Of a stretch of DNA of 34,013 nucleotides, positions 28,636 through 34,013 are shown one piece after another. This DNA comes from Bacteroidales bacterium (GTDB lineage Bacteria > Bacteroidota > Bacteroidia > Bacteroidales > UBA932). Where the stretch lies: assembly GCA_017626555.1 (NCBI GenBank), contig JAGAIM010000106.1, positions 1 through 34,013 on the forward strand, read 5' to 3'. Under the pieces are notes generated by a model. It saw only the letters and a list, made by a program, of their open reading frames with translations, did not search any database and was not told where the DNA came from. Within the stretch, counting starts at the first letter, position 1; each line of letters opens with the position of its first letter. The position numbers and the translations under genes were made by a program.

Positions 28636-28706
28636 TGAGATATGGTGTAATGGTAGCACTACAGATTCTGGCTCTGTCAGTGAGGGTTCGAGTCCTTCTA
28701 TCTCAA
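28636..28706 (+). tRNA. tRNA-Gln (anticodon CTG)
   Basis: The acceptor arm TGAGATA pairs with TATCTCA (28699-28705); the D arm GGTGTAATGGTAGCAC is normal. The anticodon stem ACAGA/TCTGT encloses the loop TTCTGGC with anticodon CTG, and the T arm contains GGTTCGAGTCC. U1-A72 is typical of glutamine tRNAs. The discriminator base is A28706; the CCA end is not encoded. Confidence 0.93.
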
Positions 28707-28725
28707 CAAAGTTCTAAAACATTAT

Positions 28726-28799
28726 GGCGGGATAGCTCAGCTGGTTAGAGCGCATGATTCATAATCATGAGGTCCGCAGTTCAATCCTGCGTCCCGCTA
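28726..28799 (+). tRNA. tRNA-Met (anticodon CAT)
   Basis: Acceptor GGCGGGA pairs with TCCCGCT (28792-28798; first pair a wobble). The D arm is GCTCAGCTGGTTAGAGC; the anticodon stem CATGA/TCATG holds the loop TTCATAA, anticodon CAT; the T arm contains AGTTCAATCCT. The standard first pair and D arm fit elongator methionine rather than initiator. A CAU-reading isoleucine tRNA (lysidine type) cannot be fully excluded by eye. The 3' end borders the accessory region. Confidence 0.9.
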
Positions 28800-28809
28800 C
28801 TTGAAAATC

Positions 28810-28868: not shown

Positions 28869-28960
28869 AAACTATTTTATTTTTCAGTTTTTGAAGACTC
28901 TTTATCCCATTATATTTACTGCCAGAAGAAAATTTACAAAACATACCACATATCCTACTT

Positions 28961-29160
28961 ATGAAACTAACTAGTTTCTAAACCCTCATCGACAACGGCC
29001 GCGGCATCCAGACCAAAGGCAAACGGCAAACTCCTCTAATACGCCTACACCCGAGCCCTCGCAAGACAAATCGTCTCAATCCTCAAATCCCGAGGCTACG
29101 ACGCCCAACTCTTGATTCCTGAAGACGACGATATCCCGCTATCAGAAAGAGTTGATATAA
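28961..29160 (+). pseudogene. decayed N-acetylmuramoyl-L-alanine amidase fragment
   Basis: Reading from the ATG at 28961 gives MKLTSF, a stop at 28979-28981, then TLIDNGRGIQTKGKRQ in the same frame. A frameshift near 29030-29043 is followed by AYTRALARQIVSILKSRGYD and AQLLIPEDDDIPLSERVDI. Together these match the first 70 or so residues of amidase_3-type enzymes (family form: TLIDNGHG..TPGKRS, AYTREIA, VPEDxDIPLSERV). The zinc-binding His of DNGHG is Arg here. With a stop, a frameshift, loss of that ligand and no remainder of the enzyme, it is dead. Homology ends near 29160, inside the last codons of the minus-strand DUF4062 gene, marking an insertion or deletion boundary. Confidence 0.75.
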
Positions 29161-29984
29161 TCATATGCAGCCTTTTTTAATCTATATATTGGATGACCGT
29201 GCCGATCATATTTTTCAATATCAATAAATCCATATTGTAGCATCCTTTCAAAGAAATCATCCCATTCAACTTTCTCCTTACCTGTTTTAACCTCATATTG
29301 ATTGGTGGCTCCTAACCCATAGATACAACTTCCACCCTCAAAATGTACTTGAAAGAATTGAGGATTATCAACAGATGTCCATGCACGCAAACGCTCAAAA
29401 TCAAAATCTGATAACTCAACAATGCTATTGGAATGATTCGTTGTAGGTGAGTCGAGAATTTCTATCGAGTTACTTAACCAGTGATCATTTATGTATAATT
29501 GGATACTTTTGAATAATTGTTCTTGAAAATCTTTTGCATCAGTAAATTCAGAATATAAGCATTTATCCCTCATTTCGCTCTTAAAGGTCTTCAACTTAGT
29601 CAATTGGTTTATATCAAAGTTTTCGGGATCTATGTTTATTGATTTTTTGAAATAAATCATTACATCCTTTCCTGCTTTGAGATGTTCATCAATTTCCTCT
29701 ACAGTACCACTACTATGTGTATCTGTCTCTGTCCCTAACTTAGAACCAAATACACAAATTAATAAATCACTTTTTGCTACAACTTCGTCATTTATAATCT
29801 TTTGACCATTTCTCCCTGTTGATGGATAAGAGTGTGTACTCCAATGAATGGGTTGTAATACTATTCCACTCCTTTCTGAGTGTAAATTGTTCCACCCATG
29901 AATAATATTAATAAAGGCCTCATACTCCTCTTTTATGTCTGATGGCGCCCCAAACATTATCTTATATACTTTTGCACTATACAT
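29142..29984 (-). CDS. DUF4062 (TIR-like) protein, probable defence effector or sensor
   Basis: A 280-residue protein without signal peptide or membrane span. Residues 4-115 look like a DUF4062 domain, a TIR-like alpha/beta fold: KVYKIMFGAPSDIKEEYEAF at the start, VLQPIHWSTHSYP, then KSDLLICVFGSKLGT (71-85), GTVEEIDEHLKAGKDVMIYF (93-112). In larger immune proteins this domain often sits at the N-terminus of STAND NTPases; here it is linked instead to a 165-residue C-terminal region ending in what may be a winged helix (WDDFFERMLQYGFIDIE, IYRLKKAAYDYI). Glu96/Glu97 lie where TIR NADases have a catalytic Glu, but that comparison is inference. It follows the protease gene by 73 bases. Its last few codons overlap the amidase remnant. 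The gene is AT-richer than the chromosome to its left. Confidence 0.75.
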   Translation of the reverse strand: MYSAKVYKIMFGAPSDIKEEYEAFINIIHGWNNLHSERSGIVLQPIHWSTHSYPSTGRNGQKIINDEVVAKSDLLICVFGSKLGTETDTHSSGTVEEIDEHLKAGKDVMIYFKKSINIDPENFDINQLTKLKTFKSEMRDKCLYSEFTDAKDFQEQLFKSIQLYINDHWLSNSIEILDSPTTNHSNSIVELSDFDFERLRAWTSVDNPQFFQVHFEGGSCIYGLGATNQYEVKTGKEKVEWDDFFERMLQYGFIDIEKYDRHGHPIYRLKKAAYDYINSF

Positions 29985-30057
29985 ATGTCTTATTTTTCAA
30001 ATAACAATAGTTTATCAATGGAACAATTCTCGTTTCTCTCCTTTTATGTGTTCTAAT

Positions 30058-30918
30058 TCACTTTATTGGCACACTATTATTTAGCAAAGGTCTTATGAGG
30101 GGGATAAAATCCAATATAGTATCTGACTTAATTATATATCCTAGATTATTAGGAATATGAGATACTGACATAGCTTTTTGCTGGATATTAGGTACTGTTA
30201 CTACTTTAATTTCACCTGTTACAGTTAACTGAGGGCCTGCGTATAGTACTCCTAATAACATCAAGCGACCACTTCCCCAATTTAAGTTACCTTGTTTATC
30301 TGTGTAACCTCCCTTGTTGAATAATATAACAGGAGATCCACTGGAGCCTGGAAAACAAGCTGCATCAATCACGAATTCCCTTCTACCATTGTGGTTAAGG
30401 GTTATATTTGTAGCCATGATTCCTCGTCTTACTATAGGCATATTGTTTATGGAGTCCCATAATCCATTGGGATATCCTATCATAATAATATTTTCTGCGA
30501 CGTCTATTTCTCCAAGTTGCTCTTTCGATGGGATTAAAGAATTATCAAACGGAATAAAGAAAAACGATTTCTTAAATTGTTTCTGTGCCAATTCTATTAT
30601 CGGGTTTATAGGCATCACACATATATCAACAAGTGAATCAGGATGCATAATCCAATGTTTTTCAAATCCATCATCAATAGAAATCGTAAAATGTTTTTTA
30701 TAAATAGGTGCTCCATCTTCATCACTTTCAGTTAATAAAAAGCGTCCTTTTGCCATACCTTGTACAACATGCTTATTCGTAACAATGAGAGGTACAACTT
30801 TTCCATCAATTATAAGATTGAAGAAAAAACCTGTACCAGAATAATTATTCCCATTAGTGTCATTAGTTTCAATACGAACTGTACTGAAACACATTTTTTC
30901 CATTGTCGATAAACTCAT
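30058..30918 (-). CDS. trypsin-like serine protease without signal peptide
   Basis: A 286-residue protein with a trypsin-like (trypsin_2/S1) fold. The triad is readable: His50 in VTNKHVV, Asp98 in SLVDICVMP and Ser193 in CFPGSSGSPVI. The N-terminus MSLSTMEKMCFSTVRIET is not a signal peptide and there is no membrane span or PDZ domain, so the enzyme should act in the cytoplasm. Cytoplasmic trypsin-like domains occur in bacterial immune systems as effectors or as parts of STAND and Avs proteins. It lies 40 bases after the restriction enzyme gene and 73 before the DUF4062 gene, all on the same strand. Alternative: a housekeeping HtrA-like protease, unlikely given the missing signal and the surroundings. 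Confidence 0.8.
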   Translation of the reverse strand: MSLSTMEKMCFSTVRIETNDTNGNNYSGTGFFFNLIIDGKVVPLIVTNKHVVQGMAKGRFLLTESDEDGAPIYKKHFTISIDDGFEKHWIMHPDSLVDICVMPINPIIELAQKQFKKSFFFIPFDNSLIPSKEQLGEIDVAENIIMIGYPNGLWDSINNMPIVRRGIMATNITLNHNGRREFVIDAACFPGSSGSPVILFNKGGYTDKQGNLNWGSGRLMLLGVLYAGPQLTVTGEIKVVTVPNIQQKAMSVSHIPNNLGYIIKSDTILDFIPLIRPLLNNSVPIK

Positions 30919-30958
30919 ATTTATCTTATTGATTAGATTGTGACAAGTTTACATATTT

Positions 30959-33900
30959 CTACTCCATTGGCTTTATCTTAGATTCAATGAAGTCAATCTC
31001 TGACTGGTCAAGTCCATATTTAGCGTAGAGTTGCTGGTCGATATCTGCAACCGATTTACTCCAATCAATATCAGATGAACTGGTAAAATCCTGCATTGGA
31101 ACAAATTCATAAACGGAAGCAAAGGCGTGTTGAGTCTTTTTCTTAATGGATACCATATATCTAAAAAATCTCGTCTTAATGTACGATATCACATTTAAAC
31201 ATTGCTCCTTTGAAAGATTATGTTTAACATGATCATAGCCAATACAGATATATGTTTGGGAACAAATACTATGAGGCTCACCATAGAACGGCGTTCCTAA
31301 TATTTGCATATCTTGACCAGTGCCAGCAGCTTCTGGGATGTAAACTTTGTGTAAATCCAGCACCTCAAAACTCTTAATCATATCTTCTTTGGCGATCCAT
31401 GCATAGCCGTCACTAACGAGATTTCTGTTGAGATAATATTTAACATCGTGTACTGAATCTCTCTCCAGTACATATCCATCCCAATTTGTGTTTAATATTC
31501 CTCTTGCACAATCACAGAATAGGGTGTTTGGCGCAACTAAATCAGAGAAATTTAAGTTAGTAGTATAATCGCCCTCAACATCTATTATCTTTTGCAAAAT
31601 ATTCGTTGCTGTAGTATCTCTGATAACCACACCCATACCACTTGCATTCAAATATTCGCATTTTGAGGTAGAAATTCCATCATGATTCAAAGTGTAGTTG
31701 CATTTCCCAACATATGCGGAAGAAAACAAGAAATAATTAACACCACCTTTTATTTCCACGCCACTGAAGCAATCGGAAGCATTTAGGTAATCAAATATTG
31801 CCACAAAATGATTTGCATTCAGCATTTTGTCTACCCATTCATTAGAGATGCCGCGTCCGCTTTTGGTCATCCATCGGCTTGGTGTAATAAGCGAAATATG
31901 TGTTGGGTTAACCTTGCATGCAACATCTATAAATAATGGATATATAGCACCTGCCATTGCGCTATTACTTGAACTTTTATCTGAGCCCTGGTTTACTTGA
32001 TATGGAGGGTTACCCACTATCGCTGTAAATTTCATATCGTTATCTTCGTTTGCTTTCCAATAGTTTTTGCCCTGCTTCATTTGTGCGACAAACTTAGCAG
32101 TTTTATTTGAAATCTGGTTGATTAAATCCTCGAAATATCGAGTATTTACCTTCGCTTGGCGGAAGCCTCGCAATGTTCTGCGAGTAATACTCTTTGCCAT
32201 CTGAGTTTTGCAGAGGACAAAGATATTTTCGCGTAGCACTGCATCCCAAACTTTGAGGTGGCGTTCTGGTGTGTCTTCCATCGTATCCGCTGCATCAAGT
32301 TTCTCCGTCACTCGGGTGCGATATATGGAGTACGCCATATAGAGTGGATAGAGACCCGACTTGGAGTTAATCTCCAGAATACGGGCATCGGAGGCGAAAA
32401 CCTCGCGGGTAACATCGCCATTATCAACAAAACGAGGAACGACAATCTGTTTCTCCTTTGTCTCATCATAGAATACCCAGCCACCCAAGCAATCTCCGAG
32501 GTGCATATTGACAACACGCCAAGGAGTCAAGACGGTCTCCTTATCTGGATTGCGGAAGGTGTTGAAGATTGCTGTTATACGCTCAATGCGGTCTTCTATA
32601 TCGAGAGCATCAGCCGCCTTTGCCATAGCGCGGATGCGCTTACCTGCGGAGCAGAAGACCTCAGGGTCGTAATACTTCTTAAACTGTTCGAAGATCTCCT
32701 TCGTTACACCTTTTGGCATAAACTCATCCCAAGAGCCATCATCTATGAGTGAGGTGAAGTTGTCGAGGGTAATTTCCTTGCTCTCGTCAGTCAAATCAGC
32801 ACCATATATCATCAACGGCATACGGATAGAGATGCCGCGAAGAATCGAAACAGCTGTATCGCGATTCTTACGCTTCTCCGCCTTTTCTTCAAGCAGACGC
32901 TTTTCCTCCTCTGTTAACTCTTTCTTTTTACGCTTTTTCTCTTCTGCTTTCTCTAACTGCTCGTGCTCTTCATTAGTAAAGCCTTGGTTGTTGATATCTA
33001 TCTCACCACTTTTAGGCATAGCTTTGGTAGAGCCGATGATCTTTTTGAGTTTTGCGAACTCTTGTAGCTCAAGAGAGTCGAGGCGCATCAAATCATCATT
33101 ATATAGATAGCCATCCTCAAAACCGTTACGGACAACACGCTCAACATATACTTTCTTTAACTGCTGAAGCATATTTGGCACATCGTAGGATATCATCTTT
33201 GAGCCTTCGTATGCGATAATCGGGCAGAAGTTGATAAAGTCGCCCACAGCTTTGCGATCATCGCTCGTAGTCTTACCTGCCTTCGCTGAAATCTTGGCAG
33301 TTTCTGCAATTACCTTCAATGTACGGTCAGGAGCAAAGTCAAATACAAAGCACTCTTCTTTTACCTTACCGCCAATAGTAGCAGGAGTTTGAACGCGGAA
33401 AATGGTCTGCATATAGCTTGAAGCCGCTGTACTAAACGAGCCTGCAAGCATAAAGACTGCCGTCCACGCTTTTACACTCACGCCCGTTGTCAAGCGACCA
33501 CAAGAGAGAGTAATCGTATATGTTTCCTCTGGCTTATTGCCGATAGCCTTATTTACAAGTTCGAGAGCATCATCTCGCTCCTGGTCTTCATCACCCTCTC
33601 CAGCAACATTTACCACCTGGAATTGGCTAAATACAGCGTGAGACTGCAACATCGCGCTCAATGCCTTTGCTGCTTTTACGCCTGGTACAATCCAAAGTGA
33701 ATGTCGGAAGTTGTCTCTATACTCCTCTGTAGAATATGGATAATTGCTGTCCGAATCCTTTTTGCAAATCAGATTGAGGAACGACTCAACATCCTTCTTA
33801 TGAACAAACTCGCCAGTTTCATCTACGCGGAAAAACTCTCGGAAGTTGAACGCCAACTCTGAGTCTCCATAGCCGTCCAAAAGTTTATTGAGGTCGTAAG

Positions 33901-34013
33901 TATAGATGTTAAGACGCGGTAGACCTGCGTATGGGTTAGGATCGCCAAAGTGTGTCAAATCCCACTCTGCTTTGGCTCGTTGTTCCATCACATAGTCCCA
34001 AGTGTATATCTCA
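30959..34013 (-). CDS. helicase-methyltransferase restriction enzyme, type ISP/Eco57I-like (5' end outside window)
   Basis: The reading frame is open through the right edge (codons before the ATG at 33991 continue EIYTWDYV), so the start and N-terminal domains are missing; at least 1018 residues remain. The first part is the second RecA-like lobe of an SF2 helicase: TYTITLSCGRLTTGVSVKAW (about 33460-33520) and SSYMQTIFRVQTPA (motif VI-like). A highly charged linker with EEKKRKKKELTEEEKRLLEE follows. The methyltransferase comes next: AdoMet-motif-I equivalent ILEINSKSGLYPLYMAYSIY (about 32320-32385), and the adenine-specific NPPY at 32000-32011. The remaining 340 residues are probably the target-recognition domain. 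In one polypeptide this matches type ISP enzymes (nuclease, helicase, coupler, methylase, recognition), but the nuclease is not in view. Confidence 0.82.
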   Translation of the reverse strand, partial: EIYTWDYVMEQRAKAEWDLTHFGDPNPYAGLPRLNIYTYDLNKLLDGYGDSELAFNFREFFRVDETGEFVHKKDVESFLNLICKKDSDSNYPYSTEEYRDNFRHSLWIVPGVKAAKALSAMLQSHAVFSQFQVVNVAGEGDEDQERDDALELVNKAIGNKPEETYTITLSCGRLTTGVSVKAWTAVFMLAGSFSTAASSYMQTIFRVQTPATIGGKVKEECFVFDFAPDRTLKVIAETAKISAKAGKTTSDDRKAVGDFINFCPIIAYEGSKMISYDVPNMLQQLKKVYVERVVRNGFEDGYLYNDDLMRLDSLELQEFAKLKKIIGSTKAMPKSGEIDINNQGFTNEEHEQLEKAEEKKRKKKELTEEEKRLLEEKAEKRKNRDTAVSILRGISIRMPLMIYGADLTDESKEITLDNFTSLIDDGSWDEFMPKGVTKEIFEQFKKYYDPEVFCSAGKRIRAMAKAADALDIEDRIERITAIFNTFRNPDKETVLTPWRVVNMHLGDCLGGWVFYDETKEKQIVVPRFVDNGDVTREVFASDARILEINSKSGLYPLYMAYSIYRTRVTEKLDAADTMEDTPERHLKVWDAVLRENIFVLCKTQMAKSITRRTLRGFRQAKVNTRYFEDLINQISNKTAKFVAQMKQGKNYWKANEDNDMKFTAIVGNPPYQVNQGSDKSSSNSAMAGAIYPLFIDVACKVNPTHISLITPSRWMTKSGRGISNEWVDKMLNANHFVAIFDYLNASDCFSGVEIKGGVNYFLFSSAYVGKCNYTLNHDGISTSKCEYLNASGMGVVIRDTTATNILQKIIDVEGDYTTNLNFSDLVAPNTLFCDCARGILNTNWDGYVLERDSVHDVKYYLNRNLVSDGYAWIAKEDMIKSFEVLDLHKVYIPEAAGTGQDMQILGTPFYGEPHSICSQTYICIGYDHVKHNLSKEQCLNVISYIKTRFFRYMVSIKKKTQHAFASVYEFVPMQDFTSSSDIDWSKSVADIDQQLYAKYGLDQSEIDFIESKIKPME

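Follow-up and report, generated by a model that had tools for sequence, protein, structure and literature searches.

A restriction-modification operon beside a tRNA pair in a Bacteroidales bacterium with two candidate single-gene defences as probable exchangeable 3' cargo

Restriction-modification (R-M) enzymes of type ISP have a Mrr-type nuclease at the N-terminus of their single polypeptide and work without a separate methyltransferase. Payne et al. reportedly described, in a 2024 preprint, defence genes that are embedded within other defence operons. One such arrangement in print is DarTG2 inside a type I R-M operon (PMC12255303). DUF4062 was presented in a May 2026 preprint as a TIR-like NADase, and the accessible part of that text reports that E. 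coli is protected against phages by bacterial DUF4062 proteins that stand alone and have an auxiliary domain at the C-terminus, that a Klebsiella member requires Glu97, and that this member is triggered by the phage portal (PMC13174449). The system, a single-gene TIR-like NADase defence, was named Swarozyc (PMC13174449). As far as the accessible parts of these sources extend, the elements of the locus analysed here are already known: the NADase family is published, the protease is a listed candidate, and R-M operons with riding defence genes are in print (PMC12255303).

The window analysed is the whole of contig C46 (JAGAIM010000106.1, 34,013 nucleotides). Three open frames on its minus strand were confirmed at the positions claimed for them in a preliminary description of this DNA, namely a DUF4062 gene (29142-29984, 280 amino acids), a protease gene (30058-30918, 286 amino acids) and an R-M gene that runs from 30959 to the window end (34012/34013), where it is open with 1017 residues visible; the gaps between them are 73 and 40 bases. 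The cluster had been said to begin just after a tRNA, and tRNA-Gln (28636-28707) and tRNA-Met (28726-28800), both on the plus strand, indeed lie directly to the left and mark the island's left border. Between them and the DUF4062 gene the DNA is decayed (28980-29145), has related stretches in other genomes of the genus and is possibly the amidase remnant (about 28960-29140) of the earlier description. One terminator-like hairpin was found downstream of the tRNA, and promoter-like sites were no more frequent than in shuffled sequence.

The GC content of positions 29142-34013 is 0.389 overall, compared to 0.463 for positions 1-28400. The two small genes account for the lowest values (0.333 for DUF4062 and 0.340 for the protease), and none of the 551 windows of 860 bases in positions 1-28400 has a GC content below 0.36. 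The R-M gene is chromosome-like over positions 32001-34012 (0.451), and its last kilobase alone is low (0.372). The earlier statement that the cluster is AT-richer than the chromosome to its left was confirmed. Given their similar low GC, the DUF4062 and protease genes could have arrived together. The earlier view of a composite defence cluster with an R-M system, probably acquired laterally, is supported.

Contig C222 (locus L002) starts with 141 bases identical to the end of C46, and the R-M frame extends for 375 residues on C222, to the contig end. By arithmetic across this exact overlap the full chain has approximately 1,346 residues, as against 1,324 to 1,441 in four relatives. The 1017 residues visible in the window are the C-terminal portion, which holds the part after the helicase N-terminus, an Eco57I-type methyltransferase (Pfam Eco57I, 2.1e-28; PADLOC REase_MTase_IIG, 9.6e-54 for the visible portion) and the part that follows it. 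The portion on C222 matched the ResIII helicase (2.1e-14), DEAD and, weakly, SNF2 models, and a sub-threshold match to T5orf172 (GIY-YIG-like; 0.079) sits before the helicase. A separate methyltransferase gene lies upstream of the enzyme on C222 (PADLOC MTase_II, 6.3e-48), and an MTase_II gene precedes the R-M enzyme in related loci as well. Judged by these profile matches, the R-M locus is a predicted methyltransferase followed by a helicase-type R-M enzyme.

Matches to this R-M enzyme, some of them partial, were detected in 18 of the 199 other genomes searched, and eight related R-M loci of those 18 genomes (L272-L279) were compared for their cargo. In five of the eight, a different gene of defence type by PADLOC or Pfam lies beside the R-M gene in the same orientation: a DUF4209 gene that partially matches PDC-S39 (2.2e-11) in genome G007, PDC-M04A and B in G185, PDC-S57 in G092, two GmrSD_N genes in G016, and a GajA-like fragment in G046, where the R-M enzyme is more distant and split. 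The remaining three did not show this pattern, as no same-strand gene lies beside the R-M gene in G196, an unnamed gene separates the methyltransferase and helicase genes in the differing order of G039, and the contig of G091 ends within the R-M gene. G007 belongs to the same genus as the host, and its island occupies the same site, after a deformylase-type gene and a tRNA-Gln/tRNA-Met pair, with an R-M gene about 52% identical to that of the window. The strongest single reason to regard the two small genes as optional passengers is that a related R-M system carries different cargo at this site, and the GC contrast between the small genes and most of the R-M gene argues in the same direction. 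The best reading of these data is that the 3' end of the R-M gene is a position for exchangeable cargo, occupied here by two independent genes.

The protease matched the PADLOC model PDC-S45 over nearly its full length (9.3e-111; residues 1-277 against model positions 11-285 of 293), as well as Pfam Trypsin_2 (5.3e-11) and phrog_7688 (1.6e-74). All 32 sequences in the alignment share its triad His50/Asp98/Ser193, which agrees with the earlier proposal of Ser193 as a catalytic residue, and no export signal was recognised by eye. The protein is scarce among relatives of the host: only three of 298 genomes, the host included, gave a match, and the other two were distant (E = 1.1e-13 with 29% identity, and E = 9.1e-4). 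The family is nevertheless common elsewhere, with 274 confirmed occurrences in the collection of species genomes and 109 in viral contigs, and it is present on 26 plasmid records. Single-protein viral scans returned no relatives, and a sequence-profile comparison of the protease set with solved structures had no match at E 0.001.

Neighbourhoods were analysed for the best 80 of the 274 genome relatives and the best 80 of the 109 viral relatives of the protease. Neighbour clustering over these loci revealed no constant partner, the commonest family besides the protease itself reaching 7 of the 80 genome loci and, among the 80 viral loci, 9 (a baseplate gene). Recombinases led the annotated nearest neighbours in genomes, with resolvases at 6 and integrases at 4 of the 146 proteins. 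The near set (146 proteins) took, on either side, the closest frame of 130 residues or more, and the far set (101 proteins) the fifth such frame; frames of at least 1300 residues were left out, and loci whose flanks were short contributed none. The near set matched 207 defence models and the far set 75, numbers that are inflated by many-model families, and any single defence model matched at most 3 of 146 near and 2 of 101 far proteins. In a Bacteroides genome, a protease 59% identical to that of the window lies between PDC-M30B/M41B (gap of 9) and PDC-S04 (gap of 44) genes (L034:1059-3586). An Exiguobacterium plasmid was observed to carry two tandem, diverged PDC-S45-like proteases (L016:5089-6792).

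In seven of the 80 viral loci (L135, L138, L152, L159, L160, L162 and L171) the protease adjoins, on the opposite strand, a tail-completion gene of a P2-like tail cluster, and its other flank carries baseplate genes. These represent at most five independent cases, because L159, L160 and L162 are more than 99.9% identical. The site beside the tail-completion gene is a place for lysogenic cargo. In the accessible part of the literature PDC-S45 appeared in a prophage listing, and a search there for experiments on the family found none. Judging from where the family occurs, a role of the protease in defence is plausible. Our tentative proposal, which we hold with some reserve, is that PDC-S45 may be a genuine single-gene proteolytic immune system that R-M operons and P2-like prophage tail clusters carry as interchangeable cargo, and that would be triggered by infection to cut a phage or host protein.

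The DUF4062 protein matched the Pfam DUF4062 model at 3.2e-4, with a score (21.3) below the gathering score of 24.7, and gave an N-terminal match to PADLOC PDC-S60 (7.1e-24). Of the two residues that had been put forward as catalytic, Glu97, located in the motif SGTVEE, remains the candidate, being invariant in every DUF4062 alignment made. Glu96 shared this invariance in an alignment of the window protein with those of 15 of the 18 viral loci (16 of 16), but is replaced by Gln in L222 in a second alignment of six sequences. The C-terminal region looks winged-helix by eye and is of a type also seen in eight relatives (Bacteroidota, Synechococcus and viral contigs; low identity to the window, 10-20%). 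It gave no profile alignment with four viral-contig proteins of the enterobacterial type, a group that may be the published one. Because the region is unlike that of this group, the molecule sensed by the window protein may not be the portal, and the sensor may differ. The case for an NADase domain is good, and the earlier view of the protein as a TIR-like candidate effector without an NTPase is supported.

DUF4062 matches were obtained in 53 of 395 genomes of the phylum, the host included. Besides the host, four genomes encode homologues that cover almost the whole profile; their frames range from 268 residues, where a contig end truncates the gene, to 318. Many of the remaining matches fall in much longer frames, of approximately 1,000 residues. 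One family of the phylum (f135) was rich in such long frames, with up to five matches per genome (L194-L218). The closest relative, in viral contig L224, is 71% identical over 104 residues; it is a short frame of 106 amino acids, and a type I specificity gene precedes it at a distance of 40 bases. For the DUF4062 set, sequence profiles found no solved structure at E 1.

The adjacency of the two small genes had led to the suggestion that they form a two-gene sensor/effector module without the usual STAND ATPase. In such a module the protease would sense infection and cleave the DUF4062 protein, or the reverse, and thereby free the NADase activity. Their common strand, the 73-base gap and the similar low GC, all possible signs of joint acquisition, fit such a module, but the distribution of the genes does not. 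The DUF4062 gene was absent from the examined flanks of all 160 protease relatives (0 of 80 genome and 0 of 80 viral loci, the best 80 each), of which 121 (61 genome and 60 viral) extended 1.5 kb or more to either side; these 160 loci did not match the R-M or methyltransferase gene of the window either (blastp, 1e-3), and eight plasmid protease loci contained no DUF4062 match. In the opposite direction, none of 29 DUF4062 loci outside the host genome (7 plasmid, 18 viral and 4 genome stretches) contained the protease; 27 of them reached 1 kb or more to the 5' side, which is the side of the protease in the window, 17 reached 1.5 kb in both directions, and the viral loci L230 and L231 are near copies. 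Likewise, no protease was found in 29 short DUF4062 loci from the phylum search outside the host, four of which are the genome stretches just mentioned. Scanned over their full length with the protease profile, the four genomes that encode near full-length DUF4062 homologues gave a single weak match, in a 484-amino-acid frame (E = 3.0e-4) of one of them, and none in the other three. The idea of a module fails because in the loci examined the genes were never neighbours in either direction of search. The closest DUF4062 relative in L224, which has no protease beside it, and the Swarozyc protein, which works alone (PMC13174449), also argue against it, and we regard it as very improbable. The preliminary description had further labelled the R-M gene as a single-chain type ISP enzyme, in which case two unrelated passenger genes would accompany it. 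That a single chain combines a helicase region with an Eco57I methyltransferase region is compatible with this label. However, the R-M frame on C222, which holds the N-terminal part, gave no Mrr-type Pfam match at E 0.1, with only the weak T5orf172 match before the helicase. Owing to this result and to the separate MTase_II gene that precedes the enzyme both here and in related loci, type ISP is not supported, and we judge it improbable.

For the protease itself, the weightier alternative is that it serves the maintenance of lysogeny, of plasmids or of islands on mobile elements and is not a defence gene. Recombinases and integrases as its commonest annotated neighbours, its presence on the 26 plasmid records and at the 109 confirmed viral-contig places, and the outcome of the literature search, in which no study of protease function or test for defence was found, are in line with a maintenance gene. 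Its clustering with an R-M system and a DUF4062 gene in the window speaks against this, as do its position between the PDC-M30B/M41B and PDC-S04 genes in L034 and its place beside the tail-completion gene in seven of 80 viral loci, the site named above as a place for lysogenic cargo. We consider a maintenance role rather unlikely.

We favour, as the probable explanation of the locus, an R-M operon beside a tRNA pair whose exchangeable 3' cargo holds two independent single-gene candidate defences; the independence of the three genes is supported by the distribution data. The R-M enzyme, going by its family, would cut unmodified incoming DNA. The C-terminal region of the DUF4062 protein would sense a phage component, upon which the TIR-like domains would rearrange and hydrolyse NAD+, so that the infected cell stops before phage release, as was shown for the Klebsiella relative (PMC13174449). 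The protease, a trypsin-like enzyme, probably cuts some protein of the phage or the host in the course of infection, its proteolytic activity being suggested by the intact triad. Together, these data point to a family of R-M operons that collects unrelated candidate defences at the 3' end, and they place a predicted Swarozyc-type NADase in Bacteroidales. They also highlight a widespread protease family, which is the point of value here: if the protease is a defence gene, proteolytic immunity is present on many plasmids and prophages, and no published test of it was found.

Compared with known systems, the R-M genes correspond to a type IIG or helicase-containing R-M operon with an MTase_II gene, a two-gene core shared with relatives (62% identity in G185), whose downstream cargo is unlike that of the window. 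As in the R-M operon with DarTG2, independent defence genes appear to ride along, but the accessible description places DarTG2 between subunits, whereas the cargo of the window lies at the 3' end (PMC12255303). The protease resembles PDC-S45/phrog_7688 as a single gene with a near full-length profile match, and differs from its relatives elsewhere in lying between R-M and DUF4062 genes. The DUF4062 protein, a predicted NADase, appears to match the architecture of Swarozyc as given in the accessible part of its description: it is stand-alone, with a putative C-terminal auxiliary region, a conserved candidate catalytic Glu, defence-gene neighbours and no NTPase. It differs from the Swarozyc described there in its Bacteroidales host and in a C-terminal region of the type seen in Synechococcus and other Bacteroidota (PMC13174449).
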